DNA of 64,000 nucleotides. Source: Litoditis marina. Taxonomy: Eukaryota; Nematoda; Chromadorea; Rhabditida; Rhabditidae. A program made the position numbers and the translations under genes. The stretch lies in NCBI GenBank assembly GCA_964036275.1, contig OZ038437.1, forward strand, positions 612,001-676,000. The letters are read 5' to 3'. The notes below the pieces were generated by a model. The model did no database searches and was not told the origin of the DNA. It was given only the letters and a program-made list of their open reading frames with translations. How positions within the stretch are numbered: the first letter of the stretch is position 1; every line of letters starts with the position of its first letter. Below are positions 497-60,580 of this stretch, piece after piece.

Positions 497-1435
497 GGCT
501 TCGTTCATACTTTTTGCAGTTGCAGCTAGATGCAGCGTAGATCTTGTCGAAAATATGCTTATTGATTTTTACGCCAATGCAGTCGACTGCAACTGCAAAA
601 ATACGCTGCAATTGTGTTGGTCATACTTTTTTAAGCAAGCTGCAGCGTTTTTTACGCTGAATTGAGCGTAATTTAAGCTGATTGCAGCGTAAATTGCAGT
701 ATTGACATGACCATACTGCACTGCAATGTAGTTGCTCTTTTAATGCATTTTTTATCGTTATTAATCTTTTTTCACTATTTTAGGCGTGCCATAATTAAAA
801 TCCAATATGTAGTAGCAGTTGACTAGGAGTTTATTAGTCTGAAAATAGATAAAAAATCCTGTTGGCACCGGGCGCTGGCGCCAAATTTGATAAAATATCA
901 GTTGTTGTCAATGAAATTGTGGTGAATTCTATATGTAACCGGGTTTTTTGGTAACCGTTTTTCCGGTTACTTCGATAATTAACCGGTCGGAAACCGAAAA
1001 TGAAAAACCGGTTACATGTTTTTCCAACGCAAAATGTGGTTTTCACCGTTTGTTTGTACGGTAACCGGATTTTAGTTGTAGGTTACCTACCGGTTACTTG
1101 TGAGGTAACCTGAAAAAAGAGTTACCAAATACCGGTTAGGTTGCCTAAAAAAAGGTTAGGTTACCTAAAAACTTGGTTAGTTGTAGAATTGGCCTGAAAT
1201 TGTTTCAAGTTAAAATGTTGAATACTCCAATTTGAAATATAGATTCACTATTTCCGAATTTAATTTTTGGATTATCTTGAATTGCGTTGGAAATTACGCT
1301 GGGTTGTTCATGCTTTTACGCTGCGTAAAATTGCAGCTGAATCTGACTGCAGCGGCAATTTGCAGCAACTGCAAAAATGTTGCAAAGCGACTGCAATTGC
1401 AGCCAGATGCAGCGTAAAAAAGTATGAACGTAGCC
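497..1435. mobile_element. 939-bp non-autonomous TIR element with TAA target duplication
   Basis: The ends are inverted: GGCTTCGTTCATACTTTTT on the left and the complement of GGCTACGTTCATACTTTTT on the right. TAA occurs at 494-496 and 1436-1438. The other two copies of the host repeat (35.8 and 47.7 kb) have one TAA and no insert, so the empty site can be read directly. The subterminal regions carry repeated CTGCAATTGCAG-like words, and the interior (930-1180) is an array of GGTAACC/ACCGGTTAC words. No transposase is present, so it is a MITE. The 3-bp TAA duplication fits PIF/Harbinger-like elements, but the family assignment is inference. Confidence 0.8.
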
Positions 1436-1529
1436 TAATACGTGGCAAGTGGTTCATTAAGAAAACAATTTTATCTGCACCGTACAGATCAAACCACATA
1501 CCTACGGCATGTATACAAAAAGAGAAAAA

Positions 1530-2027
1530 TTCATGAAAAAGTGGGGGCCCAACGACTGTGAGATTTGTCTTCTGCTGTGCGCCCCTTAGACAACTACTCT
1601 CAAACGGAGCAGCTACTGCTACAAAAACCGAAAAATACTCATGTATAACTGTTTATTACAAACATACAAAAGTCGTAAAATATTTTTTCAAACCTGTAAA
1701 CTAGAATCTACAAATCACAGATGTGCACTCAACGTAATCAGTTATAGAGTTTCTGGTTTTGTAGACAATGGTTTGCAGTTTTGGTTATTACTTAAACTCT
1801 GGGCATATTATTCAACAGTTGTTCTCTTTTTCGCAGCTGTGATTTGTAGATTCTAGTTTACAGGTTTGAAAAAATATTTTACGACTTTTGTATGTTTGTA
1901 ATAAACAGTTATACATGAGTATTTTTCGGTTTTTGTAGCAGTAGCTGCTCCGTTTGAGAGTAGTTGTCTAAGGGGCGCACAGCAGAAGACAAATCTCACA
2001 GTCGTTGGGCCCCCACTTTTTCATGAA
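1530..2027. mobile_element. 0.5-kb palindrome, composite element copy 1
   Basis: Long imperfect inverted repeat. The arms begin TTCATGAAAAAGTGGGGG and extend about 190 bp on each side of a central region of roughly 120 bp. Copies lie at 35217-35745 and 47051-47563. In all three, one side continues through a conserved spacer of roughly 100 bp into the TGACGTCA minisatellite. The other arm (2027 here) is the outer edge of the element. Confidence 0.85.
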
Positions 2028-2298
2028 TCTTCCTTACACGTTGATCTCGCTACGCGCCATATTTGACAAATTCCGACCAGAATGAAAGGGGTCAACCTAC
2101 AAAAACGGCAGATCAGTCCAACCTGTGTCACACTACAAACTGCACTAAACTACAAACTTTAAACACGTCAGATTAGACCTAATCGTTCCTGCTTATGTTC
2201 TCTTCCCCAGTGCCGTTCCCCTTTTGAGGTCTTATCATGTGTAAACAACAGTCGGCATTGTCAGTTCGGCAGTTCCATATTGATTTCACGACTTAGTC

Positions 2299-12683: not shown

Positions 12684-15600
12684 TTACAACAGAAACTTTT
12701 CATTGTCAACTGAAACACACAAACACAAAACATTTAACAACATCAAGACGTTTCACACGAGATCACCATTTTGTTTTCATGAAAAATCTGTAAATAAACA
12801 TGCTGACATTAATTTTTTTTCGGATTCTCTCCTTCATTTAATTTTACGACCTTTCTGTTATTAGCTAGAAATCTGGAACTTGAGAGAAATCCGTTTTTTT
12901 ACGGCTCCTTTGAAAACTCTTCAAGTATCCCAGTTCCAAAATTGAAAAAAACTCTTAAGTATAAGGATCTTAAACTTTCAAATACATAAAACAGCAAAAA
13001 ATTTAACCTACCTGTTGTAGGCTGGGTGAGGGGAGCATGGGTAACACGGGGAACTTCGTTCGGTTCTGCTGTGTTTGTAGGTTGACCCCGCAGTATAGCA
13101 GTAACTGCAAAGCTGTGTTTTGCAACCGGAACAAACTATTTCAGAGAACGTGATAATGGAAAACGTGATAAAATGTTCTCTTTTTCGCTCGGTTTCGAGG
13201 CGTTGTTCATCATACATATCTCAGATCTTTGAAAAGTAGCTTCTTGTACTGATTCTGGTCAAGATTTAGGCGACCTTATAGTTTTATAAGTTTGGACTTG
13301 GTATTGAACAACCCACCTTCTTGAACATTCAGAGATTTTCTCAGAAACATTCCTATGGAGTTCGTGTGACTCTGCGGCTTCTTGCAGATATATCTTTTCG
13401 AGCGAAAATCACATCTCCGATTGGCTACAATTCCAATGTCGCCACCAAAGTAAATGTAGGTAGAACATCTCATCAGAGGGTCCGCTACGAACTGAATTCA
13501 TCCGGTTACCGTAATACGAATTTTCGCTGTGATCCCATTTCAGAATGTTCTTTTCACAAAACACATCATCAAATTTACTGTACGCTACATCATAGCATGT
13601 TCCCGAAATCCTATGAATTTCCTACCTTGCATTCATAGTTACGCCATAATCCTCGGTACAAGCCATAACTACCGTGTGTATTTGCATTGGGTTGTTTTCA
13701 AATGCAACCGGGTTGCATCTCAAATGCAACCAAATTTGTGTACAGTGAGATATTTTGGTTAAGTTATGTGGTTTTGGTTGCATTTGAGAGGCAACCCGGT
13801 TGCATTCGAATGCAACCAATACTTTTGTACACATGCAACCCGGTTGATTGTGTAATTGGCCTTTGCAATGCATTATTATGTGGCGGGACTAATTTGAAAA
13901 TTATGAGTGTATCGAGATCCAACAACTCAGACATTGTCACTTCCCCATAATGAAACCCACCTGCATGCAGTCGAGCCCCAGATCCCAGTTCGGCTGTCCG
14001 GGTGCCCACTCGTAGTATTGAGCACCGCTATTATCGATTGGAGTCCAGTTGTTATCGATTTTCTCGATTCCGATCCAAGGCTGGTTGTCCCACGTGGAAT
14101 TCACACCCGTTTTCGACAGTTCTTAATGAGTATAAGCTTATGGTTAGGCTTAAAGAAAAAAAGGGGTATACACATTAGTTGCCTTAGTGTATGCACAACC
14201 CAAAACAAAAGTAGCAATGAACTCTATATTTAAAATTATTCTCAGCTCCATTTTTCGCTATTTATTGTTTCAGTAGAGCTGACCGGGGGTCGTCAACGTT
14301 TGACCGTATGTTGCTATGTTGGAGCCCTACATAAGACGCGTTCAATAATTTGGAAGAATTTTATCGGACTGTTACTGGAATAAAATAAAATTCAACATTT
14401 ATTGAACCAACAATAAGGAAAAAGTTCACATACCGACCAGAAACTTGTTGTCTTCTGGAGTGGTTATTGATGTGAGGTGACTTCCATAAATTTCACATTC
14501 CCTTTCTGCCTCTGCTTGAGTTATCGGAGGGCCTTGGAAATGCTAAAACAATACATATTCTGTTTTCCCATTTTGAAAGCTTCCTACATCCTACATTTTG
14601 AAATGCTTATTTTATATCGATTTGTAAAGTTTTACCGTTTCAACTTTCCGGCTGATTGAGGTTAGGAATCACGCCACTGATGTATGTTAGCCCTACTAAT
14701 ACAGGACCACAATGAACACGGAAAATATAAGTTTCGGTGAAAATTCATCAAGACAAACAACTAGTTTGCCAAACATGTGAACCATTAATTAAGTACGGAG
14801 TCGTACAAGCATGAATCATTATGGCGCGTAACAGGGTCACAATACCCTTTTCATCATCTAAATTTTTATCCTTTCATTTCTCAAATCGGAGTGCAACATC
14901 CAACAATGTGGAAAGTCACGTGTTGAATCACGGATAAATCTATTCTATTCTATTCTATACAGTTGTAAAATAGTTGTAGATCATTGTAGGTGACTTCATT
15001 TTTTATTGTCATTGTAGGTGACTAAAAAATTTCCTACAACGATTAATCGCAAAGTTGAAAGGTACAGTAAAAGGTTTTGCTCACCGCAAAACGAATGCGG
15101 TACATCTGTATTTGTATCGCAGTGTTGTAGTTTGATCCCATCATATTTCAATAGAAATTTAAAATACGTGTCGTGCATGAACATGTCAATCAAACTACAA
15201 CGGAGAGAATGTAGTTTCACATAACTAACCTTGTAGCAATTGTTGTTGAACGGCGTCCAACCATCCTCACAAGGCAGTTGACCTACAAAACGATCATTTT
15301 ATTTGGATGATGTCATTTTGATCTTTGAAATAAACATAGTCGATGTACGTTGATCAATGCAACTGTATTTGTAGTTTTATCCCGCTGTTTTCTCGTCAAA
15401 ACTCGTTAATCATAGTGCTCAGCAAACCTACCGGTCAATGACGGTGCACCGACAGTCGGAGGGGTCCGACTTGTCGCGACAGAAATAGAAAATCACTCAT
15501 TTACTACTTTAAATTGACAATAAATGAAGTAGGATACACAATTTGAAGAAATTGTTGAATATCATCATGTAGAATGTGAAAATATGTAGGTATTACTGAA

Positions 15601-16648: not shown

Positions 16649-16734
16649 TGATACTAAATTCCAACTGTACGGATGGAACCTAACCAGAATGAAGAGCCAA
16701 TATGAAAGATCTGCCTACTCTCAGAACGATTGGC

Positions 16735-17232: not shown

Positions 17233-20200
17233 ATGAAGTTGCTGGTTATCTTTCTAATCATCTCTGGTGTTTCAGCGAATGAGCCAATTTGTGATCGAAC
17301 AAGTCGTAAGTGAGTAGTTGATTATTATTAAGTCGAAAACCATTCGAACCTCTTGCTCAAGTGAACACAATCATTTGCTGAAACCGAAGACAAACGGTGT
17401 ACCGATTTTTCGTTTTGATTTCACGTTCGTATGGATCGTACATAAATTTCGCTGTTGGATCGCACAAAAGTAGAGAAAAGAACCATTATACACATAACAT
17501 CTATACTATCTCATGGTACATCATGCTCGTGTACATAATAAACATCTATACTACCTCATGTTTTGGTTCAAATGAGAAACCCAACATTAGCACCAATATA
17601 TGTTTGTTCTTCAGAACAAGTTCTATTTCTTAAATTGAACTCTCTCAGATGTTACCAGACCGTGAGTGACCTGGCCGATTTTTCTACGGCCGAATCCAAG
17701 TGCAGCTCACTATCGGGAAACCTCACGTCGGTCGAAAACGCCTTTGAAAATGCTTTTATAAACGGTAGGTAACCGAACAGTGGAAGAACATCGGAAATGG
17801 AGAGAATTATGAATGGCTGACGACCTCCTTAAAACTGCAGCTAACCAAGAAAAAAACAAAAACACAATAGTTGATCTTGCCTGTTTGATACCTGTATGAA
17901 AAATCAACAGTGAATGAGATGTACGCTCTCATAAAAAAGAATGAATGAAATATTTCTTCAATACGCATATTTTCTTTACAATCAACGCCGGCGTTAAACG
18001 CTGGCTTAGGCCGCTTTCATACTTTTTACGTCAGCGTTTAACGCCGGCGTTAATGTGATGAAAACATGTGCATCGATTTTTTTGGCGTTAACGCCGGCGT
18101 GAATCAATACGTATGTTCTCTGCATTCTTAACGCCGGCGTGGAACGCTGACGTGAAAAGTACGAATGCGGCCTTTCCTGTTTTTAGGTCTCGCCCATGCG
18201 TACTTTGGCCAGTCGCAGAGTAGTTTCTGGATCGGAGCCAATGATTTTAGCAACGCGTGGAACTGGGTGGATGGATCTGATTGGACATACACTAACTGGG
18301 CTAGTGGTAAGTGTGGATGAACTATCCCTTCAAACTTTTTATTCATGACTTAACATTTCTGAAAAAAAGACGTTTTAACAACTTTTCGTGTTCAATCGCG
18401 AATAAATATTCTATTCTATTCTATTCTATTCTATTCAACAACTAGGAAAAGGGGCATAGCTACGAGCAAAAAAGGAAAATGACACGTGATTGTTCTCACG
18501 CGTAATCAACATGAGGACAGTATGATGGTCTGTGCTTTAGTCTCACAGCGTTCCGAACTGTGACCTTTGTATCTTTGTACTGGTAAAAGCTGAAATATTT
18601 CCCTCCTCTCGCTTTACAAGGGTGCTCAAGTTGTAACAAACAGAGCCGAACAGAAACAAAGGGTACACAAATGGAATGGAGAGAGTCAGAATGGAAGCTG
18701 GTGCAGTTCCATTCTCGAGATATCACCTAAAGTAAGGGACGGAAATATTCATCTGCGATGAGGCTCGTAACAATATTTGTGCTTTTCTCTGTCGTAACCG
18801 GGCCGGATGTGAGAGCTGCAAACTATAGTTTCTCTGGACTCTTGTTGGGATGAAATGAAAGGTGGAACACTGTTAAGAGGGACTTTGGATCGTTTCTAAT
18901 TCAGGCCAAACCTAGGGTGACTTTGAAAACGAAAGTTCGAGCTGACCTAGTTTCAAACAATGACCCCTTTACTGCTGAAAACCTCACTTCCAGTTTTGTT
19001 GCATCTCCATCCAGGGAAAACCTGATTTTCAATAAATTTTGGTGGACAATAAAGTCGTCTCATGTATGATTCAGGTGAGCCATCCCAGACCACATGTGCG
19101 GCGGTTACGATGAATACTGGAAAATGGATGTGAGTGGGATTGGAGAAATCAAAGAAAGCGTGAAACTCGAAGAGTACTGAGACACTCAACCGCATAGTGT
19201 TTGAGAAATGACAAAAAATGGAAATAAAAAATAAGGAAGCATTGAAATTACAATGATTGTGGATAATAACTAGGATCACGCCATGAAAAATCGGAAAAGA
19301 ATACCGATATGCAACGCTATAAATTTCTTGGCTGTTAATATTGAGTAAATCGTGGTTTCGATACATATGGCTAGCCTGCGGAAACTATGTATTCTCCATA
19401 AACTAAACATTGCAGAACGTCTCAACCGAACGAGAAAAGGCCGTTCATTTGTGTTGTACCGCCTCCAAAAGTTGGTGAGTAATTCAACATGAGTTTAGTT
19501 ACGAACGGAAGTTCGTGTAAACAGTGAAATGCAAAATATAAAGATAATATGTGGTAGAAAACCACTTGGAACAGAACAAAAGACTTGGTTTTGGTTACTT
19601 TATATGCAAAATTACATGAAAACCCAAATTTAACCACGAAACCAGATAAAAACCCAAGAGAAACTAAAAAGAAACAACCACGAAGACCTAAAATTGCATC
19701 ATGACAATTGTAACCAGAGCCTTGCACCAAAGGTTTTGTGCGTGACGGCTTACTACGTACATGTTATTAACGCGACGTCAAAATACAATACTTGCCTATA
19801 ACCAACCATTCCTAACATCCCGGGGGGTCCGGTTGCCTGGTCCCCAGGCAGAGAAAAAGGTAAAAAGAATGGAAACAAAACGAAACGAATGCCTTACGGC
19901 CTCAACGAACCAAGGAAATAACGTGATACAAGTTTGCCTTATGGCGCCAAGGGAACACAATACACTATGCTTGAAAGCATCACGGAAATACAATACACGA
20001 AAACTATGCCCGGAAGCACCAAGGAAATCCAATACACGATAGCTATGCCCGAAGGCACCAAGAATAGCATACACGGAGAACTATATGCCCGAAGGCACCA
20101 CGGAAATATCATTACACGAAACCATGATAGCGATATCGATGAAACTGATCTGATGTCGGCGACCTTTCAAACCGGAGGGGACGCCTTTATAATGCCTCCT

Positions 20201-23200: not shown

Positions 23201-26200
23201 AAATTGACTACCTGTCAGAAATGAGCACGTCTAATTAGGTATCTTCAGCTTAGAACGACCGTTAAAGTCAAATGCAGAATTTTTTGATTTGCGTGAAAAC
23301 CCTACAAATTGAAAGTTAACTACCTTGGATGGGGAATTATTGACTTCAAGTTTCGCAATCGTAAATCGTCCTTTCACGGATGCAGCGAGCCCGTTTTCAA
23401 ACCGGAGTTTGAAATAAAAATTTTGAAAGGAAAATTATGTTCTCTCTCGAATTGTTGTTTCTTGAACGATTCTGAATGGAAACTACTCCATAAAACAGAT
23501 AACGTGTTCGGAGCGATACCTTGATTACTTCATTAATCAAATTGTCGATCGTGCAGTGTCTACAATGACTATTATACTGTTTTCAGTACAACGGATTTGT
23601 GAATTCCTTGAGCGGGGAGCAAAGGTGCGTCGACGATGAAGCCCATCTTACATCCATTCACTCTCTGGAAGAACAACAAATTATTGTCGGTGAGACAAAA
23701 TTGTCCTGTTGTACTTGGAAATACCCTTGAAAACACATTTGAACATCTCAATGACAATATTCCATTGACAAATTCAGTTTCGTGGTTGAAATGCTGGAAA
23801 TGTGTCATGGCTAGTTGAAATCGGTCTGGTGTTTTCGATATTTGCTGTAAAATATTTGCCAGTAGAAAAACGGTATTCCGAGTAATTGGTTGGATTCGGT
23901 TCTCAATATCCCTCCTAAACTATTGGCGCTCTGTTTTTCCACGAATTCAGTATAATCTCAGAAATTAGGTGTCTTCCGTACATTCCAACAGGAATGCATG
24001 CTCACAAGCAGTTCTCTTCCCCTTTCCTCAAAGAAGTCACTCGAATGTCACTGGATCAATGCCAAGAGAGCATTCGATGGTCCACCATGAGGTATTCTAT
24101 GAAAGAAAGGGACCAAGACCTCACAAGAAGCTGCTGCTACAAAGATCTGTGATATGTATGATGAACACCGTCTCGTAACGAAGCGAAGTGAATGAACACA
24201 TATATGAAAAATATGTACATTAAGTCACAGACTGCTCATCGTTCGAACGATTTGCGCACCATTGCGTTGAACCAACAGTTCACAAATTTAGCAGCCCGAT
24301 GTGGTTTGTACTATGGAATTCAGGGACGAGTCGCCAATTACCAAATATGATTCTTTCGCTTTTTAGCAATGCCCTTTCTGTCACAGAAAATATTTTTGCA
24401 AAAGTGAATTAGCTTGATAACGAGCCGAGAATGTATAATGGCGACAGTCAACAATTTCTTACATTCATTTGTCACTCTTCGGAATCGAACCCTTAACTTT
24501 CGGCTGCGGCGCTCACATCCTCTCGGCCATGCTGTTACGGGATAAAGCGCAGCTAACAGCTTAGTATTACGCAGCCAGAGCATGCAAAATAATGGTTGGA
24601 CTAAGTAATGATTGCAAATAAACTTTAATGATTCTATTGCGAATAAAATCCGAGATTGTTGAAGAAAATCTCACTGTTTTTGGGTTATATCACGATAGCA
24701 ATGAATTGTCTTCAAAATCTTATTTATTTTCCTTTGTTTCGTAACAGATGTACAATACCTTGAATAATATCAAATAGTACCTTTCTACTTAACTGTTAGT
24801 TTATAGTGGATGTATAGCTAAACAGCTGCTCCAATAAGTTCCAAACGCACTACACCGGCAGATCTCAAGTTCTAGACATAATTTGGGTGTGATGGGAAGT
24901 TTATGTAAACATTCCATCTCCCTCAAATTATGACATTTGCTATCAAGCATGGTTAGATCGAAACTCCCTTTTAATCGTGCCCCAACTAACCAGCTATCGA
25001 ATCACGCTACACTTAGAAGTGTTGATACAACAAGCACACAGTAGGTTTGGAACTGTTTATTGGAGAGTGATCGAGGTATTTATACCCATTTCCCAGACAG
25101 CGTGAAGCGTCTTCCAGAAGCGTAGACTGCACTCTTTGTTCTTCTTGACAGGATGGCTTGACTCGCTTCTTCTTCTTGTTCTCTCCTTTCTAGTCGTTCT
25201 CGGAATGAAAGCGGTCTGTGCCATAACACCTCCCCTATTGATGACTCATCAATACTACTAGGATCTCTGGCGCGGCGATGACCAAAATTGTTGATCGGAC
25301 CCGAGAACGGGTTGGCAGAGTTCTCCCTAGTGTTACGTCTCCACTCCCTTGCTTTGTTTGAGGAAGTGGAGTTCACATTGCTAGGTGTACCTCTCTGCAT
25401 ATGATCTTTTGTGAAGTTCGAGTTAGATCTACATCTCCCCTCAATCGTGTGAGCGAAGTTCAATGCTACTCTACATCTTCGTTGAATATGGATCAGGTGT
25501 GCAATCTGTGTGTACTTGTGAAACCTTCTACTGGAATGAAACCTTCTCCGGATCGGATATTCCCTCCCCTGGTTTTCATTCCTCGAATTGCACTTTTCAC
25601 GCTGCATTTCACGTGATTTTGAGTTCGTCAACGGTTTAACAGGTTCGTTTACGTCGTTGGTTGCCTGTTTACGGCGTGCAATTTCCACATCCACGGTTTT
25701 CATTTTCATCGAAATGCTATTAACGGTGGGGTTGTGGTGGTAGGTTTGCACCATATTGGCTGTGCCCAGCGATGTGCCCAGCGATGCAATCTCTTCGCAG
25801 CAATGATTGGTAGTTCATGCTTGGGACCGAATATTTTCACCAATGGTTGATGATCGGTCAGGAGGGTAAATTTCCTTCCATAGAGAAATTGATTGAATTT
25901 CTCAACGCCATATACAATGCCTAATGCCTCTTTCTCAATTTGAGCATAGTTTCGTTCCTCTTTTGTGAGTGAACGTGAGGCATAGGCGATGACTTTCTCT
26001 TTGCCATCGGCGTATTTGTGATAAATGACTGCTCCCAATCCATAATCGGAGGCATCAGTGGCCAATACGACTGGAGTTTGGGGGTCATAATGCGTCAAGA
26101 TATCGGTTTCCATCAACCTTTTCTTGATAGCATGGAACGCAGTTTGCTGTTCCTTCTCCCATTTGAATACTACTCCTTTTTTACGCAAACCATTCATCGG

Positions 26201-29200
26201 GGCTGCCAAGGTAGATAGATTCGGGATGAATTTGCCATAATATTGAACCATCCCCAAAAAGGATTCGATTTCCTTGAGGTTTTTCGGTTCTGGCATATTG
26301 ACCATGCCTTTCAGCTTCTCTTGCGAGGGTCTTATGCCATTGGCATCGACAACGTGTCCCAGAAAATCCATTTTTTCTGTTAGGAATTCACATTTTTCAC
26401 GTTTTAGTCGAAAACCTGCCTTATTAAGGCGGTCTAGCACTCGTCTGAGTCGATCGAGATGCGTGCGATCATCCGGCGCGGTGACCGTGATGTCGTCTAG
26501 GTATACGAAAACACCTTCTATACCTGCCAGCGTTGTTTCCATTATGCGTTGGAATATGGCTGGGGCAGAGGCTACACCAAATGGTACTCGTGTATACTCG
26601 AACATGCCTTTCAACGTATTGATAGTGGTGTATTTTCTCGACTCTTGGTCTAGTTCCACTTGCATGTATGCATCAGACAGATCCATCTTAGAGAACTTTG
26701 TCCCTCCATTTAGCATATGGAACAGATCGTCTGGAATGGGCAACGGGTATTGGTTGATATCCAATTGCTGGTTGACTGTTACTTTGTAGTCACCGCATAC
26801 CCTTATTTTGCCTCCGGGTTTAGGCACAACCACGAGAGGTGTTGCCCAGTCAGAGTGTTCTACTCTGACCAAGGTACCGTTTCGTACCATTTCATCGAGC
26901 TTTTCAATAACCTTCGGTCTGAGAGCGAACGGAATCGGTCTTGCCCGAAAAAATTTCGGGGTTGGCGTATCCTCTTTGAATTTGAGGTGTGCCTGGACCG
27001 TAGTACACTTTCCCAATTCTGGGTTGAAAAGTGCCTTGTTCTGCTCTAACATCTCGGTTAGCTCGGATTTGAGTGTCTGACGATCTAGCGTCTTGACCTC
27101 GAACACCGTGCGGTAGTGTGGACCACAATCGATGCCTAGTGAACGTATCAGGTCACGTCCACACAACGGATAACCACTATTCTGTCCTTCTAGAACATGA
27201 ATAGGTATGATGGCTTGGTTTCCGTTGAATTTGACTTTGACTTTTGACATTCCGGCGAAGCGGATAGGACTTTTATTATAAGCCATTGCCTGTGTTTTCA
27301 CTGGCAATAGGGTTGGTTTGCCAATTCCGACCCAAACGTCATAGTCAATTATTGAGATTGATGCGCCTGTATCTAGCTCACAGGGCACGGATTTACCGTT
27401 TATCTCAAGATCCAGCAGACAAGGCGGCTCATTTTTCACACTATTGATCAGTGTAGGGGAATTTTCCCTTGAGCTCTTATCCTTGTTAACGTTGGCTGGC
27501 AGACTGGTAGTCTGGCTCCTCTGTTTTGGATACAGATTGGAGGCTTTACAAGCCAATGTTTCAGACTTGTCAGGTTTCATCGAGACCTGGCCCTTACACA
27601 ATGATGTAGGGACTTCCTGAACCACTGGATTTGGTTCAGCAGATTCAATAAGAATCTGGCTCCTCGTTGCATATAGCGGTTGGGAGTCTTCACGAGTCAA
27701 TATTTCAGACTCGTCAGGCTCAATTACGGCCTGGCCCTTACTCTCATATAAAGATGTAGGGACTTTCTGAACCACTGAATTGGGTTCAGCAGATTCAATG
27801 AGAATCTGGCTCCTCGTTGCATTGAGCGGTTGGGAGTCTTTACGAGTCAATATTTCAGACTCGTCAGGCTCAATTAAGGCCTGGCCCTCACACTCATACG
27901 AAGATGTAGGGACTTTCTGAACCACTGAATTGGGTTCAGCAGATTCAATGCGAATCTGGCTCCTCGTTGCGTTGAGCGGTTGGGAGTCTTTACGAGTCAA
28001 TATTTCAGACTCGTCAGGCTCAATTAAGGCCTGGCCCTTACACTCATACGAAGATGTAGGGACTTTCTGAACCACTGGATTTGGTTCAGCAGATTCAATG
28101 AGAACCTGGCCCTTCAGACCGTTTTTACGCGGTTGAGGGACTTTCCGGGCCACCACATGAGACTCGGCAGACTTGAGAGTCTGGCTCCTGTTTCCTTTAG
28201 GAGGATCGGAGACTTTCCTATTGCCTTTTCTCGTCTTTCCGTTTTTACACGAATGCGAGCTTCGAGTCACGTTTTTGTGCTCGGCAGATTCAATCTGAAT
28301 CTGGCTCCTTTGCGCATGACAGGAGACTACTTCGGCATATGAGCGGGTTTGTAGAGAACCCTCGGACAAGGTCCGGCTCTGCATAGCATGCGGCACAGAG
28401 ACTTTGGCAAAAGGTCGGGTCGAAGAATTCGATCCCTCAGATTTAATTCCATGACAGTGTACCCTATTGGTAACTTGGTGGATGCGATTGCAAAAAACAT
28501 CCTCACTGTCGGAAAAATCTGGCTCGGCACAAGAATTTACGTGACGCGAGACTTTGGCCTGCTTTCTACAAGCTCTTGCCAAGTGGCCGGACTTGCGACA
28601 GTTGCCGCAGAACGCTCCTTCCTTGTGGAAGCAGCGCTCAGGTGAATGTCCTTTCATGCCACATACGGTACAATTAGTACCATGTCCATGCTTGGGTTTG
28701 TGGGAGTCATGCTTTTTTGTGGATTTGAATGACTTTGGTTCCCACTTGCCCTTGCTATGAACAGAGCGGTCTGACTTCTTAGCGAAAATTTTGCCGATTC
28801 CAGTAGGATGGCTACCTTCTTTGAGATGTGGCGCATTTTGGCCGACTCTCTCGAAAGCTTCCGCAATTTCTAAGGCTTGCTTAGAAGTCAGATCCTCTTT
28901 CTCAAGAAGTCTCTTCCTGGTTTCAAGGGAGGAAATTCCACCAATGAATACCAAGGTAACCTGAGCGTCCCGGTGGTCCTTGATGGCGCCGAAGTCACAG
29001 TCCTTGGCAGTCTTCTGGATGCTGGCGTAGAAGTCCTGCAGGGTCTGTCCACTGTTCTGGGCCATGGTCATCAGACGATAGCGCTCGGCGAGGACCAGTT
29101 TCTTTGGGGCAAAGTGCTTCTCCATAACGCTGTACAACTCTGTAATGGGTGTATCTTCGGGAGTACGACCTTGCAACAAAGACTCAAGGAGTTCATAATT

Positions 29201-33295: not shown

Positions 33296-36200
33296 TCAGA
33301 TCATGGTGGCCGGCTTCTGGCAGACAGCAGCCCGCATTTTTGTCCAGCAGAAAGATGAAGTCCACTTATTTGTAGACGTAGGTTGTGCGGTTGAGGGGTC
33401 CGAGTACATCTGTAATAGTGACTTATGAATTGGTAAATACGAACGCAATAACATGAGAGGGAAGAACTGCAAACAATCTGCGTCTCTCTTATTCATACGC
33501 TCTCTGATTGAGGGTGAACCGTCGTTTCTGAGCCGACAAGTGAAATCCTGCAGGCGAGCAAGATAACTGTCTCTCTGATCTACAATCCCACTCAAACAAT
33601 TAACACAAATGTCTTGCGATCAAGCAGAACTGGAACAGGTGTCATTCGTTCTCTGCCATTTACCAGTGGCACACAACGAGTGAGAGCTGACAAGCTAAAA
33701 CGATTCCGTCACGAGGTAGATAGGGACTGATCAGCTGACAGATGCTAGTTCCGAGTTTGCGCTCGTACCGTTTCAACTTGTCACCGAAATCAGATCACAT
33801 TGGGCGATGGCGCCGTTTCGAGTTTGACCAATTTAACGGAATACGATCTAGCTTAATCTTTTCTGCGAGCTGCGAAATAGCTTGCGCTTTTTTCAACCGA
33901 TGTTGATCTAGCTGGGAGCTCTCACTGTTCAAAAGCTCACTGTTCAAACGTTTTCAGCAGATTACCCCCGAAAATTGAAAGTTCAAAGACGTTTTCAGCA
34001 GAGAGCCCCTGAGTTGTCTTTTTCAGGCTTTTCGTACACGTGTAAGCTTCCGCAGTTTGAAAATAAACGGATGAGCTCCAAAGAGATCAGTTTGGACAGA
34101 TTCACTTTTTTTGCCATGATTCCAATCTCAATCAAGCAGGTAAGAAACCTGTAAAAACTCCTTACTCACGTAGGAATTGCGTGAAATATAAAAATTTATA
34201 GATTTTTCAAACACTGAATTATCCAGGGAACCCCTTTCTCAGACAGCCCCACGGTAAATGTTATCAACCTTTTGTAATTGATGAATGGATAACAATAAAG
34301 TAACGAACGCATGAAATATGCACCACACCAACTTATTTCACTGTTTTTTTGTTAGCCCATCCGGTTTTCGGTCACCTGTGAATTTTGGTGGTGCCATTCG
34401 GCGTAATTTGTCCTAAGGCGAAAACGTTGCCCTTTTTCAGTTCAAACGGTAGTCTTTCATGATTTGCGAAAATGGTCGAATGAAAATTCAGTATTTTGCT
34501 GGAGTGTGTGGGAGGATGACGAGGACGAAATGTTTTTGATTGTCACCAATTGTGTTGATAAAAAAGACGACAGTTGGACAAAGTCTTACCAGAGCGCATG
34601 TGTTCAGACCTGGCGGGTCGAGTGGCATTCCAGGAATCCAGTTGGTGTAATCCAACTAAAAATGTGTGTGAAATAGTCTCAGATCAATATCTTGAGGACA
34701 GCCAAAATTTTTTTTTCATGTTTCTGATTTGCTTCGGGAGCTGAAAAAAGTTCCACAAAAAAACTTCAAAACTCAAATAACTTGAAATTTCCATAACTCG
34801 TGAATGCTTTCTTTCCCAGCTTCGAGTTTGCCTTTGCAGAAATAGGATGAAATGATAAAATTCGATAAACTTGCTTTTCAATGCTCGGAAAAGTCGAGAC
34901 ACGAAAAACTCGGAAATTTAAACTCGATTAACAACTCTTACACATTTCCTGAAACAACAGTGCTAGTAATTTGAAGTGGCTGAGCCTTCATAGTTTGACC
35001 CAAAGGCAAATTCGAATGAAAATGTCACGCATGGAAATCGAGCCACATAGCTTCCGATCAACCGCAACCACTAAAAACCTTCCGGCCATGAAGGAGGGCT
35101 GTAGCCACGAGATTGCGCTTCTCGTATCGATTATTGATTTTGAGGTAGAAACAACGGAATTAAATTGAAGCAATCAATCAATCAGAAAAAAGCCTGAGTA
35201 ACAAAGTAAATAACTATTCATGAAAAAGTGGGGGCCCAACGACTGTGAGATTTATCTTCTGCTTTGCGCCCCTTAGACAACTACTCTCAAATGGAGCAGC
35301 TACTACTACAAAAACCGAAAAATACTAATATACTCATGTATAACTGTTATATTACAAACATACAAAAGTCGTAAAATATTTTTTCAAACCTGTAAACTAA
35401 AATCTACAAGTCACAGCTGCGAAAGAGAGAACAACTGTTGAATAATATGACAAACGTTATAGCACCTAGAATTGAAGTAATGACAAAAATACCAACCATT
35501 GTGCACAACACCAGGAACTCTATAATTGACTACGTTGAGTTAACATCTGTGATTTGTAGATTCTAGTCTACAGGTTTGAGAAAATATTTTACGACTTTTG
35601 TATGTTTGTAATAAACAGTTATACATGAGTATATTAGTATTTTTCGGTTTTTGTAGCAGTAGCTGCTCCATTTGAGAGTAGTTGTCTAAGGGGCGCACAG
35701 CAGAAGACAAATCTCACAGTCGTTGTGGCCCCACTTTTTCATGAATTTTTCTCTTTTTGTAAACATGCCGTAGGTATGTGGTTTGATCTGTACGGTGCAG
35801 ATAAAATTGTTTTCTTAATGAACCACTTGCCAAGTATTACCATCGTTCGAGAAAAATATGACGTCAACGTTGCAGTTCTAAAAACTTACTTTATCTGCCC
35901 TTCAGAATCCCAGAATACGTCATGTTTGAAAGAAGTTTCATCGTGAATTGACCATTTTTAAGAAACTTTCAGCATTTGAAAACATATTTCACGTCAATTT
36001 TTTTAAAAGTTGACGTCATCTGGCCTTCTGATTTCCAGAATAAGTCATATTTAGATAAAGTTTTATCGTTAATATACCATTTTTAAGATATTTTCAGCAT
36101 TTGAAAATATATGTGACGTCAACTTTGCACTTTTCAAATCGACGTCATCTGGTCTCCAGAATCCCAGAATACGTCACTCCTAGATTGAGTTTCACCGTTA

Positions 36201-39200
36201 ATTGACCCTTTCTAAGATATTACCATCGTTTAAAAATATATGTGACGTCAACTTTGCACTTTTCAAAAATGACGTCATCTGGTCCCCAGAATCTCAGAAT
36301 ACGTCACTCTCAGATTGAGTTTCTCCGTTAATTGACCTTTTCTAAGATATTTTCAGCATTTGAAAATATATGTGACGTCAACTTTGCACTTTTCAAATCG
36401 ACGTCATCTGGTCTCCAGAATCCCAGAATACGTCACTCCTAGATTGAGTTTCACCGTTAATTGACCCTTTCTGAGATTGTACCATCATTTGAAAATATAT
36501 GTGACGTCAACTTTGCACTTTTCAAAAATGACGTCATCCGGTCTCCAGAATCCTGAAGGACGTCAGGAATAGAATACTTCATATTCAAATAAAAGTCACG
36601 ATGGCAACATATTTCAATTTTCGAGCAAATCGGTAATCGCGCGCAGCGCGAAGCGCTGCGTGTGAGTTGTGTTTGGTTTGGTCATTGCGCACCCGTTTTC
36701 AGCTTTCAAACCCCAAAAGTCTTCAAATAATACATTTTTTTCGGAATTCAAAGAAAGAGAGAGCTAGCCATCTATTAAATACATGTTGTGTGAAAAAATT
36801 AGGAAAATCGGTCAAGTTTGAAAAAAGTTGGTCTCGTGTCGTTATGAAAATTTCCGTTGTCCCTCGTCCCTCGTCCCTCGTCCCTCGTCCCTCGTCGCTC
36901 GTCCGATGTCCGCATAGAAAATTATTTTTTTAACTACTGGGCCGATTTGGCTAAAATTTGGCACAAATGTGTAAACCCCAAAATTAGCGCGGTCCCATAA
37001 GTTTGGTGATGTCACGTTATGTCTGACGCTTGGCGCTGGCGCCAGATGGCGCCAAGAGCTGGGAAATATGTGTTCCCATGAGTAAAAATGTTCGAAATTT
37101 CGCACAGAGGTCATATTAATGGGTTTAACCTATTTTTCATAACATGGTACTATGAACTTCAAATGGCGCCAAACCCGGGCGCCTATTGGCGCCAAATGAG
37201 AATGACGCTAGCGAAGAAGGTAACGACCGGATTCGTTCACAGAGGTCAGAACTATACATTTAGTTGACAAGCGGCTTGGGTAACTACGATTTTTCGACAC
37301 TTGGCGCCGAAAAGCCCGTTTATCCGCCAATTGGCGCCAAAATTGAAAAAATTGTTTCCGAACAAAAAATCGTCGGAAAGTGCGCTAATTGGTCAAAGTC
37401 GTTCGTTCCAGTTGTTTTTCATCAAGTGGAGTATAACATGCATGATTATTGGCGCCAAACGCTGGGGCCCGTTGGCGCCAAATCAGTAAATGCATGGTTT
37501 GTACTGTAATGACTCAGATTTTTCACAAAGCTCAGATTTGAATGAAATAGGCGAAAAAACTATGGGTTTTCACTAGTTTTGCCAACCACGCCAATTTTAG
37601 AGGTCAATTGACGCCAAAAATATTTTGAGAAAGCATGACACCGTTTGAGAAGTCGAGACTTCGCCCAGTTATCAAGAAGTTTTATAGTCACCATTTTTCA
37701 AATTTCATTCTGATTGCTCTGATCTACGAGTGATTTTACTAGTACAACTAGCAAAAAGATAACAATTAGTAAAAAGTGGGGGACCAGGAAGTGTGTGAGT
37801 TCTGTTCGGTTTCACCGTTTTTAGCAAAAAGTGAACAATACGAGGTATAGGAGTGTGCAACAAAAATAGAACGATACATAGGTTTGCACAACGGTTCACA
37901 AAAAACATTCATTACACAAATCCTGATTTTAGCGTGAGTGTAAGAGTGGTTTGACGTACGTACGTTATGAACCGTTGTGCAAACCTATGTATTGTTCTAT
38001 TTTTGTTGCACACACCTTACCTCGTATTGTTCACTTTTTGCTGAAAACGGTGAAACCGAACAGAACTCACACACTTCCTGGTCCCCCACTTTTTACTAAT
38101 TGTTACTCTAAGTTACAATACAGTTTGAGTTGTCGACCGGACAGAGAGAGTGAGAAAGCGTGCTAAATGGAGAGAATACTATTATATATCGCCCAAAAAT
38201 AATATTCAACAGATTTGTCACAATTGTCACGTAGTTTGTGTTTGTATATTGCTCGTCGTGCGACTGATATTGATTTGGCCCCAATGCAAGTTTGCTAATC
38301 AGACATCAACCTATGTATTCATTTCTCTTCATGTATGTTTTTTTCTCATTTAGCGCGCCTCGAGCGTATTAAATAAATAAATAAATAAAATAAAATCAAT
38401 ACCTATGAGTATAGCATACGCTGTGTGGACGAGAAAAAACTCGCGAAGATGCAAGCTTTCGAAAAATGTCTATAACTTTGACTAAAACAATTTTTTCGCA
38501 AATTTTTTTTGATCCGCCAGGGAATGAGTAGATCTTACATCCCTTACACAATTTGCAACGAAAACGGTTGAATAGAAACCCTTGAACTGGGAATTTGTCC
38601 TTGTCACGATTACACACTCCGAAAACGTCTATAACTTTGACAAAAATTTTTTTCCTAAGTTTTTTTTCGCTCCGCCAGGGTTTGAGTAGGTATCACATGT
38701 CTTCCACAAATTTCAACAAAATGTGTCAAGTAGAAACCCTTCACCCACCCACTCACTCACACACGACGGAAGTTGGCGCCCTTGATGAAGCGCATGAGGT
38801 CATAACTTGGCTCAAACTTAACCGATTTCGCTCAAATTTGAAACACGGTTAGGGACTAAGCTATAGAAAACAAATTCATTAATAAAAACTTTGTTCTGCA
38901 AATTTCAGCCTTTTTGAGGAGAAACTAAAAAAACGGAAGCGCTCATTAGCCGGACCAAAGACAAATCTCGCACAGCGCTTCGCGCTGCGCGCGATTTCAC
39001 AAAATTTATCTATCTCACAAAGCGCACTCTTTTGGTTTTCAATTGTTATTTTTGCACATCAAGCTCCCTTTGTTTTCTCCATCATCTAATTGTTTTTCTT
39101 CATTCATGTTTTCTGTTCTTCCCATTTTCTTTTCTTCTCCTACCGGTGAGCCATCCGTCCATTGCCATTTGTTATTTTCGTATGTGAGACCGATCCAAGT

Positions 39201-54600: not shown

Positions 54601-57600
54601 ATTGCAAACCAAGGTACACTTGTTGCTCAGGTGGTTGCGAAATCGTTGTTTTTTTGGAGTCTGAAATCAAAACAGTGTGCTAGACATGTTCAAATATTGT
54701 AATAGGTTAGAATAAACAAAAGTTACACAACATTACATCAAGTTTTGAAGAATGAGAATGCTAAAGAGAGTCTGGGAGAGAAAAAAACGAGCAAGAAAGA
54801 GAAAAAGGAGGGAGATGAAGTAACGAGATCTGTTGTGAATCGAAAACATCTTAAAATGTGATACCTGCAATAAAATTTGATTCCTCCAGAGAATGAACAG
54901 AGATCAAGTGTGCGGGAAATGAGAGTCCTATGCACGCTTCTTCTGCTTCTCGAAACGTATTATGTCCGCTGACGGACTAGAAAGAAACGCAATGGCACAA
55001 AATATAAAGGTGATGATTGTTTATTGCTTCCTACTGTGGTTTTATTTGCTGCCTCCTTCTCCTTTTCTCTTCTTCTTTCGTTTTTTCTCTATTTTTCTTT
55101 ATTTACCTCTCTTTCTTTTTTCTTTCAATTAAGAAACAAACATTTCTCTCAATAACGTTTATGACAGTGTCTTAGATCTTAGTTAATGAACTCACCGTAT
55201 AACAACTCGAGGTGTCGCGATTCATGATAGTGCTATCTGTACAATAGGCTGCAAACAAGTAGTGAGCTCGGAAACAAGACAAGTATATAATGCGTTCCAT
55301 ATTTCCACTGAGACCTGTTGGCATTGCGCCAAAATCCTCATTCTCGACTCGACCACATGTCGCCAACCACTAAGGCGTCGCCGCGCCGTTTCGTAGAATT
55401 TTGTAAGCACAATCAGCCGAATAAGTTATTTGAGCAGAATACGAGTAACGGACTGTAGACTACTTTTCTCTTATTCAGATACATGATTTACTTGTGTGTG
55501 GTGAACAAGCGGGTTCCGTGCTGTTGAAGGTACACCCGACTTAGTTTAACTCATGCTGTTGAAGGTACACCCGACTACGTATGCTATAAGATACCGGCCC
55601 CTTAATTCCATCCTGCGTCTCCTCAAACATACGCTATTTCTCTGTTCTTACCTCCCGCCGGGATGTGAGCGATGAGAAATAGTGAGGCAGAGCGAAAGAC
55701 GCAGAATGGGATGAAGATGCCGGGATCTTCTAGCGTATGTGCTCCGGTTAGATAACAGTTCGCCCACTCGGGTTGCCTTGTATTGGGTGCCATCTTGTTT
55801 AACTTACGAAGTTTGGGCGAAGGTACGATGCAGATTGAAGCCAGTTTTTCGTGCGAACGAGAGCTCCTGAACCTATGATCTTAGGAAGACATATGGTAAA
55901 ACTGTGATATACTGATTACTCTGTTGAATGTTTCACTCCGTTTCCCGTTTTGGCAGTTTAGTGAAACAGGAAGAGTTAGTGCAAGATCATTACTCACATC
56001 CAGGTCCCAGTGACCGTAGACACAGAAACACATGTATTCATCAAAGGTTCGCCTGAAAACCGCACCATGTAAGATATTGCTAAGTATTTAATTGATTCTT
56101 GATGGTTTGATCGTTGATGCGCGTTATCTGTCATCGGTAATCGATATCTAGGATCTCTTGTTCCGAAGAGAGAAAGGAGTTGAGTAGTGGTAATACTACA
56201 ATAGAATCCCTAGCTGGGAAAAGGATGTTGACTACGCGCTCTAAAGTAGACAACAGTCATGCCTTCCTAGTAGTCCGTCAAGGGATCACTTACCCAGCTA
56301 CAATAAAACAAGTTTCTACAATTCGACAACCAAAGAAAATCACAAAAACTAATAGAGAAAAATCCGAGATGTAAGAATAGATGTAATGAATGTAATATGT
56401 GTGTGGTTTATTTGTAGGACTGACCTATACATTTCAATCAGAAGTTTGAAACAAATATATTTGTAAACTGTATTTCAGGGGTTTACAATCTTTACCTGGA
56501 GCCCAGTTAGTATAAGACCACTCTGCTCCATCCACCCAACTCCAAGTATTTCTGGTAAAATGATTGGCTCCTATCCAAAAACTGGTTAGGTTCATTTCTT
56601 TTAAGTAGGCAGATGCGAGACCTGTGAATATGAACATATAGAATTTACATTTAAAACACTACAGCACATACGTGCATCGTTTCACGTGGAAAACAAACAA
56701 AAACACAGCAGGTGATAACAATACAAACTAGACAGGTACAACTCACGGTGAACGATAAACAGACATTTGGTTTTTGTCCTGTAGGCTATTCTGCCTTTCT
56801 CTGAAGCGGCGATTACGCAATTGATGAAAGAAGTATGAGCTGTTGATCTACTATAAGTACAAGGCGGCGTAGCAATCTCCACAGAAGTTTATGAGATCAC
56901 CTCATGAGCTATTATGAGCACAAGTTTCTCATGGAATTCTATTGATTGCTATGCTACAACATTAGAAGTTCACGAGTAGCTCATGGGGTATCTCATGAGA
57001 AACTCATATAAACTTCTCATGCGGTTAGGCGGTTTGCTACGCCGCAAGGCGAGAGTTGACAAGCGTCTCTAGCGAGTACTGCCATGAGCCATATACTGTA
57101 GAAGTCAGTTGAATAGTCACATTCTGATGAAGCGTCGTGCACTTTGTCATTGCACGTTTCTGAGTTCTGCTGCGTTTTACATGTTCAACGTGAGTGTGCA
57201 ATTGACCAATGGTATATAGATCGCGCTGCAGGAAACTTCAAGAGATGTGTAATTGTGAAGAAACTAACTGGTTCGTCTCGATCTCTCAATATAAAATGTT
57301 CACGTACCATTTAGAAACGAATTCTCGAATGCGTCTTCCATCGATGTCAGTTGTCCATAAAGCGAAATGCAATAAGATTCAGACTTCGCAAAACCAGCCA
57401 AGTTAGTCACAACTTGATAACATCTGGAATTCGAAAAAAAAACTTGTAGAATCGCGTATTTTATGAGCAGATGTCTAGGTTTTTTCAGAATCATTCCGAA
57501 TGAGCCGTTGACCTGGAAGAAGGTTTTTTCAGAGGAAATCGGTAGTTAGATGAACGCGTGACGTGTGTTCAAACCTAAGAAGAAATTCATACCACAAATT

Positions 57601-58083: not shown

Positions 58084-58837
58084 CACACCGCATCAATAAT
58101 AAAATGTGATTTAATCTGGGCACAATAGCAAATTTTTCAAAAGATTAAGATAAGAGTTTGATAAGCTGCTATCAGAATATGGCACATAAATGTTTGAAAG
58201 CCATGAAATACAAAAAAAACGGAAAAATACATATTTTGCACAAAACAGAAGAGACTAATCTGCCCAGCGTTTCGCACGATGTGACCCAGTGTATCAAAAG
58301 TATAACAGTCAGACAGTGCGAATTAGTGAAAATTGCATTTAAAATCGACGTAAAAAAACGACATCTTAAAATTCTCCAAGTCCTATTTTTTTTGAAAACC
58401 AGCATTTTGTGATATGTATTATTCGTTTTCTCATTGAAATAAATGGGAGGTGATATGATGGTTCAAGTTTCGGCGTGTTTACCGTCTTCAGAGCTTAGAA
58501 AATCCATGAGTAACAAACTACGATAAATTCGATCCAATCTCGTCGGCATTCAACTCAAAAGTGTTCCAAATAGTGAGAGAAAGCATGACCGACTACAATC
58601 TAACAAATAAAATACACCTTATCCACCGGAGTGGTCCGAGGCAGCGAAAGAAGCAAGGGAGAATGTTGACCGAGAGTAAATGAAGCACCGTCAAAATGTG
58701 CATTCATTCAAAAAGGGCACGACTCAATATCGAACGTCTAATTCTTCTAATCTCAGGTACTTCTGTCAATCACGGTTGTTTTTGTCGTCGGGTACTTTTG
58801 TGGTTCACCCCAAATCTGGAAATTCGCTCGACGTCTG

Positions 58838-59007
58838 AGTACGTATGCTAGAAGGTCCCGGCACCTTCATCCCATCCTGCGTCTCCTCAAACATACGCTA
58901 TTTATCTGCTCTAACATCCTGACGGGATGTAAGAGACGAGAAATAATAAGGCAGAGCGAGAGACGCAGAATGGAATGAAGGGGCCGGGATCTTCTAGCAT
59001 ACGAACT
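58838..59007. mobile_element. 170-bp palindromic MITE, copy 4
   Basis: Same family; CTG flanks both ends (58835-58837 and 59008-59010). Confidence 0.85.
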
Positions 59008-59084
59008 CTGGTACTTATTTCATTCTCCCTCCAACACAGCCAGCTGAGTATTGAATAACATGGTGTGAATGACGACCAGCATTC

Positions 59085-60580
59085 ATAATAATAATAATAA
59101 TAATATAATAATAAACTTTATCAGTATAGTGATGGACAAACTAAGAATTACGAATTTAAACCAATTGAACTGATAATCGAGAAAACAAAGAAAAATAAAA
59201 ACAAGTACATACGCAAAGTTGCTGATATGTTGATACTCCTGAGACTCAGTGAGAAGATCTAGATGAAAAGGGTACCCAGGATTGATTGATGTTTAACCGG
59301 AAACCATAGCGATCAACGTACACGTCAGATACAATTGGGGCTAGATGAGGGGTCAATTGATAGCAACCATGGAAACTGCTGTAACAATCATGCATGGAAA
59401 CTCCACTTAGGTGCATGTTATACAACATGTCAACATTGTCATTTACACATTTCAAAGAAGCATCATCAAGGGCATCATGGAACGATGGAGGGTCGATAAT
59501 GGATGGTGTATCACACATAGGAGAAGGATCATCAGCTATTTGGATAACTTCAACAGGGACAGGACTTTGGATAGCAGGTTGATCATTAAAATGAACATGG
59601 GTTGTACGAGTAGATATAGAGTTTGGAGATGGAAATGCGGACACATGATTGGAAACGACATTTGTGGTTTGTTCAACTAACTCCATTTCAATTGGCAGAA
59701 TAGGATCGGCAGACGGTGTTGGTGTTGTAGTTTGGTCGGTGACCTCAGCTCGGGCGGCGTCTCGTTTCGATTGTCTGGCGAGGAATCCGGCCTTCCGCTG
59801 TTCCGGGGTCTCGAACTTCCGAACGTGAAAAGTTGACATAGAAGCATCATAAGTTGACATAGAAGCGTTTTTGATAATATAGAAAACTACGAATTTGTTT
59901 TACATATTCATATACTATGCAAAACTATAAATTTGTTTTACATATTCAATAACTACCACATATGCTACTCTTTTGATTGCCTACTGGCTAACAAAAGTGC
60001 ATTGTTTACATGAAAACAGCCCATCCCGACCTCATCCCGCCGGGATATAGCCCAACCCGGCCGGGATGCCTGTGCATACCGATTATCCCAACCCGGGACG
60101 GGCTCGGGTTACATCCCGGCGGGATCACGTCCCGCCGGGATGTAACCCGAGCCCGTCCCGGGTTGGGGATAGGGATGTTCATGCCGGCTCAGACTAGGGA
60201 TGTTCATGCCGGCTCAGTAGAAAGATCAATAAGACGAAGAAATGGAATACCATCTTTGATAGATACTTTGAGTGGACGAGGTAAACCATCTTGACGAGGC
60301 TTACCCAAACGGTGAAGAATGGAAATATTAGATGGAGAGACGGATACCAAATTGAAAACTGCATTCACCTTTTTTTTGTAGAAGAATCCTCTGGTAGGCC
60401 ATAAATAGTGAGACAGCAGCGACGATCATTGAAGTGGTGAAGTTGGGATTGAATAGTAGTGGGTAAGGATTGGGTCAGAGAGTCGAGTTTGTCGTTGAGT
60501 GTTTTGAGTTCACTCAATAAAGGGTGGAAAATGGGTTCGAAGTGGTACAATTTTTTGACGAGGCGATGGCATAGTAATCA
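59085..60580 (-). pseudogene. Decayed ORF1-type retroposon without reverse transcriptase
   Basis: Coding pieces on the minus strand run from an ATG near 60570 to 59246. A short helix (LSELKTLNDKLDSLTQSL) is followed by a fold resembling the RNA-binding domain of non-LTR ORF1 proteins (CCLTIYGLPED, then ILHRLGKPRQDGLPRPLKVS), and later by FETPEQRKAGFLARQSKRDA, which matches the usual TPEQR block. Two phase shifts lie in A-runs (about 60548-60553 and 60369-60376), and a motif-array insertion splits the frame near 60215. The last 204-codon frame is intact (59860-59246). The 3' end runs into an (ATT)n tract at 59085-59113, a common tail of such elements. No reverse transcriptase motif is seen. 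Confidence 0.6.
60010..60217. repeat. Array of CATCCCGGCGGGATG and CCCAACCCGGG words
   Basis: Overlapping palindromes in 150 bp, followed by a 26-bp direct duplication (AGGGATGTTCATGCCGGCTC). It interrupts the ORF1-type frame. The CCCGGCGGG core also forms the centre of the 170-bp MITE family. Confidence 0.7.

Follow-up and report, generated by a model that had tools for sequence, protein, structure and literature searches.

The mobility of PIF/Harbinger transposons requires two proteins, a DDE transposase and a Myb-like protein (PMC9710019, PMC2836001), and in the zebrafish element Harbinger3_DR the Myb-like protein recognises a 9-bp subterminal motif (PMC9710019). As described in PMC4482050, 3-bp TNA or CWG flanks together with short terminal inverted repeats (TIRs) characterise PIF/Harbinger, NuwaII, and NuwaI elements. 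The present analysis concerns arrays of short palindromic words in a window of 64,000 nucleotides from the nematode Litoditis marina (assembly GCA_964036275.1, contig OZ038437.1, positions 612,001 to 676,000; positions below are those of the window), and the repeat families that carry them, called E1 to E9 (Table 1). At five of the loci first noticed there (E1, E3, E4, E7, and E8) the words belong to transposons that are non-autonomous and have inverted repeats and flanks of PIF/Harbinger type. The words are probably subterminal repeats of non-autonomous cut-and-paste DNA transposons, mostly of the PIF/Harbinger (PHIS) superfamily, and are predicted to be the sites of a family-specific Myb-like protein.

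An initial sequence-only reading of the window knew of no name for this class. Such motifs are named subterminal repeats (STRs), and have been described for CACTA (PMC2613891) and hAT elements (PMC10368747). The CACTA elements Spm/En, Tgm1, and Tgmt* combine a conserved terminus with many palindrome-forming copies of a subterminal motif; this motif differs between families of one species, and the DNA-binding protein diverges fast and is poorly conserved (PMC2613891). The window elements resemble them in pairing a terminus with divergent subterminal motifs, but their termini and superfamily are different. In the hAT element Hermes, binding is cooperative: two BED domains occupy a pair of subterminal repeats that together form a quasi-palindrome. 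Hermes differs from the window elements in its motif (AAGT), in its superfamily, and in that the sites are read by the transposase itself (PMC10368747). Whereas Harbinger3_DR offers one motif in one element, the window elements carry many words, often as inverted pairs.

With regard to flanks and termini, the nearest relatives are within PHIS. The CWG flanks and short TIRs of the NuwaI group recur in E4, E8, E9, and probably E7, whereas PMC4482050, whose main text does not use the term "subterminal", makes no mention of dense word arrays in NuwaI. PIF/Harbinger (TWA) and NuwaII (C|TNA|G) elements, as presented in PMC4482050 and PMC2213677, share with the window TTA, TAA, or TGA flanks, a TIR start of GGC, and MITE-like deletion derivatives (MITE, miniature inverted-repeat transposable element). 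One Medicago subfamily of PIF/Harbinger carries subterminal 60-bp variable number tandem repeats, whereas E1 and E3 have 7-bp words instead (PMC4482050, PMC2213677). The architecture is known, and is seen here as a variant in TNA and CWG elements; by analogy, the arrays would fit the binding-site role seen in Harbinger3_DR, CACTA, and Hermes. Membership in CACTA/EnSpm was rejected, no TIR of E1, E3, E4, E5, E7, E8, or E9 starting with CACTA or CACTG. hAT elements, for their part, make 8-bp duplications.

Palindromic words and their half-sites

The palindromes of the window were set against 60 dinucleotide shuffles per setting, made in 500-bp blocks. An identical 8-bp palindrome occurs at least four times per 600 bp at 7 places (shuffle mean 0.05), three of which are TGACGTCA minisatellites and one AT-rich. 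For 10-bp palindromes present at least three times per 600 bp, there are 6 places against 0.00 across the 60 shuffles, four at loci of the sequence-only reading and two in AT-rich repeats at 41.7 and 50.5 kb; for 12-bp palindromes present at least twice, 5 places against 0.00. The clustering is therefore real and exceeds that of shuffled sequence, but the loci are not one single thing: the proposal of at least eight loci, each built on the same design from a word of its own, is confirmed in part. Seven of the nine proposed words were found near the places given, one as its reverse complement. GGTAACCGGTTAC, placed at 930, does not occur; just the half-sites GGTAACC, GGTTACC, and CCGGTTA are found between about 930 and 1165. 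CATCCCGGCGGGATG, placed at 60010, is present there in imperfect versions, the exact word lying at 3087 and 12422 inside the E9 family. The ninth word, TGACGTCA, belongs to a plain 130-bp tandem repeat according to Tandem Repeats Finder (TRF), an outcome that the sequence-only reading had itself named as a refutation. A plain tandem repeat with a constant period was ruled out for E3, E4, E5, and E7, where TRF finds short pieces or none, and the remaining arrays are not plain tandem repeats either. An Rfam search of the window gave no match.

The repeated unit of the arrays is a 7-bp half-site, and the palindromes are inverted pairs of it. Single half-sites are common and the spacing is irregular, TRF recovering at most small pieces of an array, contrary to the constant spacing and palindromy first proposed. 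The genome (261.8 Mb, 522 contigs), whose size and elements indicate a eukaryote, was searched with each locus and 40 places were scored per family. First-look candidates, which are not confirmed copies, numbered 3030 for E1, 865 for E2, 312 for E3, 196 for E4, 213 for E5, 587 for E6, 2391 for E7, and 72 for E8; scored counts are lower bounds. Most families have sharp ends, the ends of E6 not being reached. Word statistics were obtained on six family consensuses (E1, E3, E4, E5, E7, and E8) with 200 shuffles each. The commonest 7-mer exceeds all shuffles in E3 (7, shuffle maximum 6), E4 (19, 14), E5 (18, 7), E7 (11, 4), and E8 (12, 8), and does not in E1 (8, maximum 13). Perfect palindromes of at least 10 bp exceed every shuffle in E4 (8, maximum 6) and E5 (12, maximum 6). 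The STR architecture, with many short family-specific motif copies near both ends and in both orientations, is present in E4, E5, and E8, the longer elements, where the half-sites are confined to the two ends.

Element families with TNA and CWG flanks

E1 and E3 agree with the PIF/Harbinger pattern of a 3-bp TNA target-site duplication and a TIR beginning with G or A, their TIRs starting with GGCTTCG and GGCCGCT. E1 copies are flanked by TAA, TTA, or TGA, identical on both sides in 15 of 16, and the best copies among the 40 scored places (of the 3030 candidates) match over full length at 96% identity. The repeat around E1 has two sister copies, at 35.8 and 47.7 kb, in which E1 is absent and a single TAA stands at the junction. 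The half-site CAGCGTA occurs 7 times in the E1 consensus, near both ends. The central GGTAACC module of E1 is also found on its own, in L070 (2767-2976, 88% identity) and L013 (2476-2714, 66%); since it exists apart from E1, it probably represents an older element, with a word of its own, nested in E1. E3 is flanked by TTA or TAA, identical in 9 of 12 copies, and its 164-bp consensus has 7 AACGCCG half-sites throughout the element. One extra AACGCCGGCGTT lies outside E3, at 17984. A C-type-lectin-like reading near 18.2 kb and intron ends TTTTCAG, both judged by eye, point to a nematode-like animal.

E4, E8, and E9 have the 3-bp CWG duplication of NuwaI elements. Along the 1070-bp E4 consensus the half-site is found 19 times, in the intervals 25-144 and 887-1024, so that every copy lies either in the leftmost 144 bp or in the rightmost 184 bp. 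Within the right array, at 30293-30310, the TIR recurs in part, with 17 of 19 bases matching (position 960 of the consensus). The exact 24-bp TIR occurs at 35 forward and 39 reverse places in the genome, against 0 for the reversed-pattern control, and the CTG or CAG flanks are identical in 12 of 16 copies, including two short derivatives and two other-word relatives. Twelve exact-TIR places had no nearby exact partner and lay outside the scored E4 copies; nine of them were read in part, over 1.0-1.3 kb each, as candidates for an autonomous partner of E4. Two are short derivatives of 300 and 130 bp (L085 and L086) that have lost the interior and retain the TIR, the words, and the CTG duplication; L087, L089, and L093 are variants, and L091 and L092 variant-word elements. 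L088 and L090 share sequence before the TIR and so count as one larger repeat with an E4 terminus, with no GGGAACG in the part read. An apparent 13-kb TIR pair on C19 is actually an E4 copy split by an insertion.

E8 is represented by full copies elsewhere in the genome (e.g. L063 and L064). Its 730-bp consensus has 12 CATCCCG half-sites, at 27-139 and 595-690, and the flanks, CTG or CAG, are identical in 4 of 6 copies. The right end of the window copy is present twice with its CAG flank, as a 25-bp tandem duplication at 60170-60217, which may hint at how the duplication of arrays and ends starts. E9 has CAG on both sides in two of its five window copies, the other three being less clear, and CTG on both sides in one copy in L036.

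The sequence-only reading had also noted 3-bp duplications at several loci. They are present in E1, E3, E4, and E8; E7 has CWG flanks, yet the middle base often differs. The 179-bp E7 consensus carries 5 CTCATGAG palindromes and one single CTCATGA, making 11 CTCATGA matches throughout the element. Among the E7 copies read (L033-L044), 11 of 12, all but the window copy, are bordered by CWG left and right, and the two sides are identical in just 5 of these 11, the other 6 pairing CAG with CTG. In a further, older copy, in L056 (77% identity), both sides read CAG, while divergence within the family is about 2% per column. The effect is much weaker elsewhere: flanks that differ in the middle base only were found in 1 of 6 copies of E8, 2 of 16 of E4, 1 of 16 of E1, and 0 of 12 of E3. 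In the model for mPing, staggered cuts leave 5' overhangs that consist of the duplication (PMC4561436), from which it would follow that an excised element carries the three bases of its donor site. Joined into a new site, this 3-nt overhang could leave a mismatch at the middle base. The twelve E7 copies, few as they are, suggest such a carry-over of the donor overhang at transposition; E7 itself is probably a NuwaI-like CWG element.

Across these families, word and terminus are separable, and the separation is unusually clear here. The termini of E1 and E3 are identical at 16 of 19 bases, without any word in common. The 24-bp terminus of E4 is found exactly at one end of L091 (98 bp) and L092 (137 bp), with one base changed at the other end; these elements have CTG and CAG duplications and contain GGGAGC but no GGGAACG. 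Since E4 itself contains GGGAGC as well, the emphasis has shifted here and no new word has appeared. E4 and E8 have GGCCGTATGCA and CWG flanks in common and differ in their words, while E8 and E9 have the half-site CATCCCG in common and differ in their termini. A de novo TIR scan of the sequences read gave 48 pairs in 14 clusters with TNA or CWG flanks against 13 pairs in 6 clusters with control flanks, a result too biased by the choice of loci to be generalised.

The E5 nest and the dispersed repeats

E5 is split in the window by a long terminal repeat (LTR) retrotransposon, and copy L074 matches both pieces. Its 2-bp flanks agree in 9 of 12 copies including that of the window, and are TA in 5 of these 9. 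The consensus (1291 bp, lacking roughly the outermost 40 bp of one end) has 18 half-sites, at 33-431 and 1189-1271, and copy L083 carries extra array units. The LTR retrotransposon, presumably Ty3-like by its domain order, has LTRs that are 99.55% identical over 222 bp. The region 24311-31226 is a nest of three levels, with E4 inside this young LTR element with its 5-bp GCTAC flanks, itself inside E5. Given the near-identity of the LTRs, the insertion of this E4 copy is probably recent.

Other word-bearing loci are of different kinds. The longest E2 matches besides the window extend from query 108-112 to 281-287, many others covering inner parts (40 scored of 865). Nineteen of the 40 share a strand and fall within about 370 kb (G000 C1:15.31-15.68 Mb), with distances that are often 10-15 kb, an arrangement that points to local amplification. 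For E6, the 811-bp query is matched over its full length at nearly all of the 40 scored places (of 587), and a single further TTGGCGCCAA, at 16730, stands apart from the array. TGACGTCA has 19416 occurrences in the genome against 3773 for the reversed control. Its three minisatellites in the window belong to one dispersed composite repeat, at 35203-38999, 47037-48977, and, reversed, 1-2035, the first and last of these being interrupted by insertions. This repeat consists of a near-perfect foldback (about 510-540 bp) and the minisatellite, with an end hairpin GCGCAGCGCGAAGCGCTG in the first two copies, and is possibly Helitron-like.

Table 1. Repeat elements and arrays in the Litoditis marina window
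Feature	Position	Strand	Characteristics
E1, TIR element	497..1435	+	TIRs GGCTTCGTTCATACTTTTT / GGCTACGTTCATACTTTTT; TAA duplication at 494-496 and 1436-1438
E2, dispersed repeat	13690..13861		half-sites TGCAACC / GGTTGCA; ends set where matches stop
E3, MITE, 164 bp	18009..18172		TIR GGCCGCTTTCATACTTTTTACGTC; this copy has TTA on the left, TTT on the right
E4, non-autonomous element, 1073 bp	29329..30401		TIR TGGCCGTATGCACCAATATTTTTT; CAG duplication at 29326-29328 and 30402-30404
E4, left subterminal array	29353..29472		half-sites GGGAACG / CGTTCCC, with 3 GGGAACGTTCCC among them
E4, right subterminal array	30218..30381		GGGAACG / CGTTCCC, 2 GGGAACGTTCCC, variants of GCTCCCGGGAGC type
E5, TIR element	24311..31226	-	TIR CTMTGGAATTYGG; 2-bp duplication TA; half-site CCGGCGA / TCGCCGG; partly degraded
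LTR retrotransposon inside E5	25010..30808	-	LTRs at about 25010-25231 and 30587-30808; GCTAC on both sides
E6, stretch in a larger dispersed repeat	36638..37759		words TTGGCGCCAA / TGGCGCCA at 37037-37480
E7, MITE, 182 bp	56864..57045		TIR GCGGCGTAGCAA; AAG on both sides of the window copy
E8, truncated copy of a 730-bp element	59867..60214		TIR AGGCSGTATGCATGAA; half-site CATCCCG at both ends
E9, MITE, 168 bp	61012..61179		TIR AGTACGTATGCTAGAA; CAG duplication
E9, further copies	58838-59007, 55576-55743, ~12345-12513, 3010-3179		last two with exact CATCCCGGCGGGATG
TGACGTCA minisatellite	35859..36553; also 33-474, 47683-48390		period of about 130 bp

What may read the words

If the words are subterminal repeats, the protein of a matching autonomous element, most likely Myb-like/SANT, would bind the 7-bp half-site, and inverted pairs of half-sites would take a protein dimer. 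Several bound molecules would bring both ends together and recruit the transposase, which would cut at the shared, more conserved terminus and the 3-bp flank. The word would drift with its binding protein while the transposase holds the terminus, and this co-evolution would yield near-identical termini with different words. The sequence-only reading had supposed that the transposase of each family reads its own dimer site. This is partly supported, in that the words sit in TIR elements with target-site duplications, subterminally at both ends in E4, E5, and E8, and in that nearly the same termini go with different words. It needs refinement in that the unit is the half-site, and that an accessory protein of Myb-like type is a likelier reader than the transposase itself.

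A number of observations weigh against the subterminal-repeat explanation. The GGTAACC / CCGGTTA array of E1 (about 930-1165) is central and not subterminal, and the perfect palindromes of at least 10 bp in E1, E3, E7, and E8 (4, 3, 2, and 4) are within the shuffle range. The flanks differ in 4 of 16 E4 copies. E5 is no PIF/Harbinger element because its duplications are of 2 bp; it belongs to another superfamily, yet shows the same array design. E2 and E6 can be classed only as dispersed repeats, and may or may not be TIR elements. Among 20 of the 191 window frames of at least 70 aa compared with Pfam, no transposase was found: 18 had no hit, one matched a zinc knuckle, and one a reverse transcriptase/RNase H. 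None of 10 frames lying next to E4-type termini, in L085, L086, L088, L089, L091, and L092, had a Pfam hit. Finally, the word columns are not consistently better conserved than the remainder. Among the aligned copies, which are those nearest to the query and so a biased sample, mean column agreement is about 0.98 in E1, E4, and E8 and 0.92 in E5. Divergence is lower in the words than outside them in E4 (0.0075 vs 0.0202), but values as low arise with 156 of 1069 shifted masks, and likewise in E3 (0.0185 vs 0.0280; 28 of 163 masks) and E8 (0.0179 vs 0.0243; 246 of 729). It is higher in the words of E1 (0.0208 vs 0.0187), E7 (0.0213 vs 0.0196), and E5 (0.149 vs 0.071).

Three other explanations have to be considered. 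Some words are familiar: we take TTGGCGCC and TGACGTCA to resemble E2F and CREB/ATF sites, and GGTAAC...GTTACC an RFX X-box. The words could accordingly be dimer sites of host transcription factors, carried for expression or by chance and spread with the elements, much as MITEs are reported to amplify E2F sites in Brassicaceae (PMC12595863). That the sites are limited to both ends in E4, E5, and E8, that non-coding derivatives of 130-300 bp retain them, and that the word varies by family, whereas one host factor predicts one word, makes this account unlikely. Less probable again is that the words have no binding partner and arose as by-products of repeated duplication or inversion of ends, through aberrant transposition or template switching, followed by drift. 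The partial internal TIR copy in E4, the E8 end that is tandemly repeated together with its flank, the variable array length of E5, and the lack of a general excess of conservation in the word columns all speak for it. Duplicated ends, however, predict long regular units, whereas the arrays consist of 7-bp half-sites irregularly spaced with other sequence between them, and even the shortest derivatives keep these half-sites.

The possibility that the arrays act as DNA structure, palindromes extruding hairpins that are then cut or copied, is highly improbable. Perfect palindromes do exceed all shuffles in E4 and E5, but many half-sites are unpaired singles, and the layout of the array is nearly constant across the E1 and E4 copies compared, so that there is no sign of growth at individual loci in these two families. 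The proposal that arrays grow by a hairpin-templated process finds no support in the copies compared, which carry nearly the same array at different places; judged from these alignments, the arrays appear to be mostly inherited with the element. Such growth as is visible resembles the duplication of element ends, the array of E5 being the one that does vary.

Returning to subterminal repeats, a bolder extension, which we regard as possible but doubtful, is that Harbinger/Nuwa-type transposons in this genome consist of two separately evolving modules and found new families by a change of word, the overhang carry-over of E7 being part of the same proposal. The transposase would read the terminus and the 3-bp target, a fast-diverging Myb-like protein would read the subterminal word array, and words would be swapped or re-coded under an unchanged terminus. 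If this is true, a change of word would free a new family from cross-mobilisation or repression by rival copies. On the subterminal-repeat reading itself, many palindromes that seem mysterious in a genome can be taken as sites where transposon proteins are predicted to bind. The cleavage chemistry of the superfamily is a question on which the unmatched CWG flanks of E7 bear. As several families share a terminus and differ in their word, they offer a natural test of how MITEs are matched to a transposase and a DNA-binding protein, a matter still open in PIF/Harbinger elements. The words themselves provide recognition sequences that can be tested, for proteins whose targets are difficult to predict.

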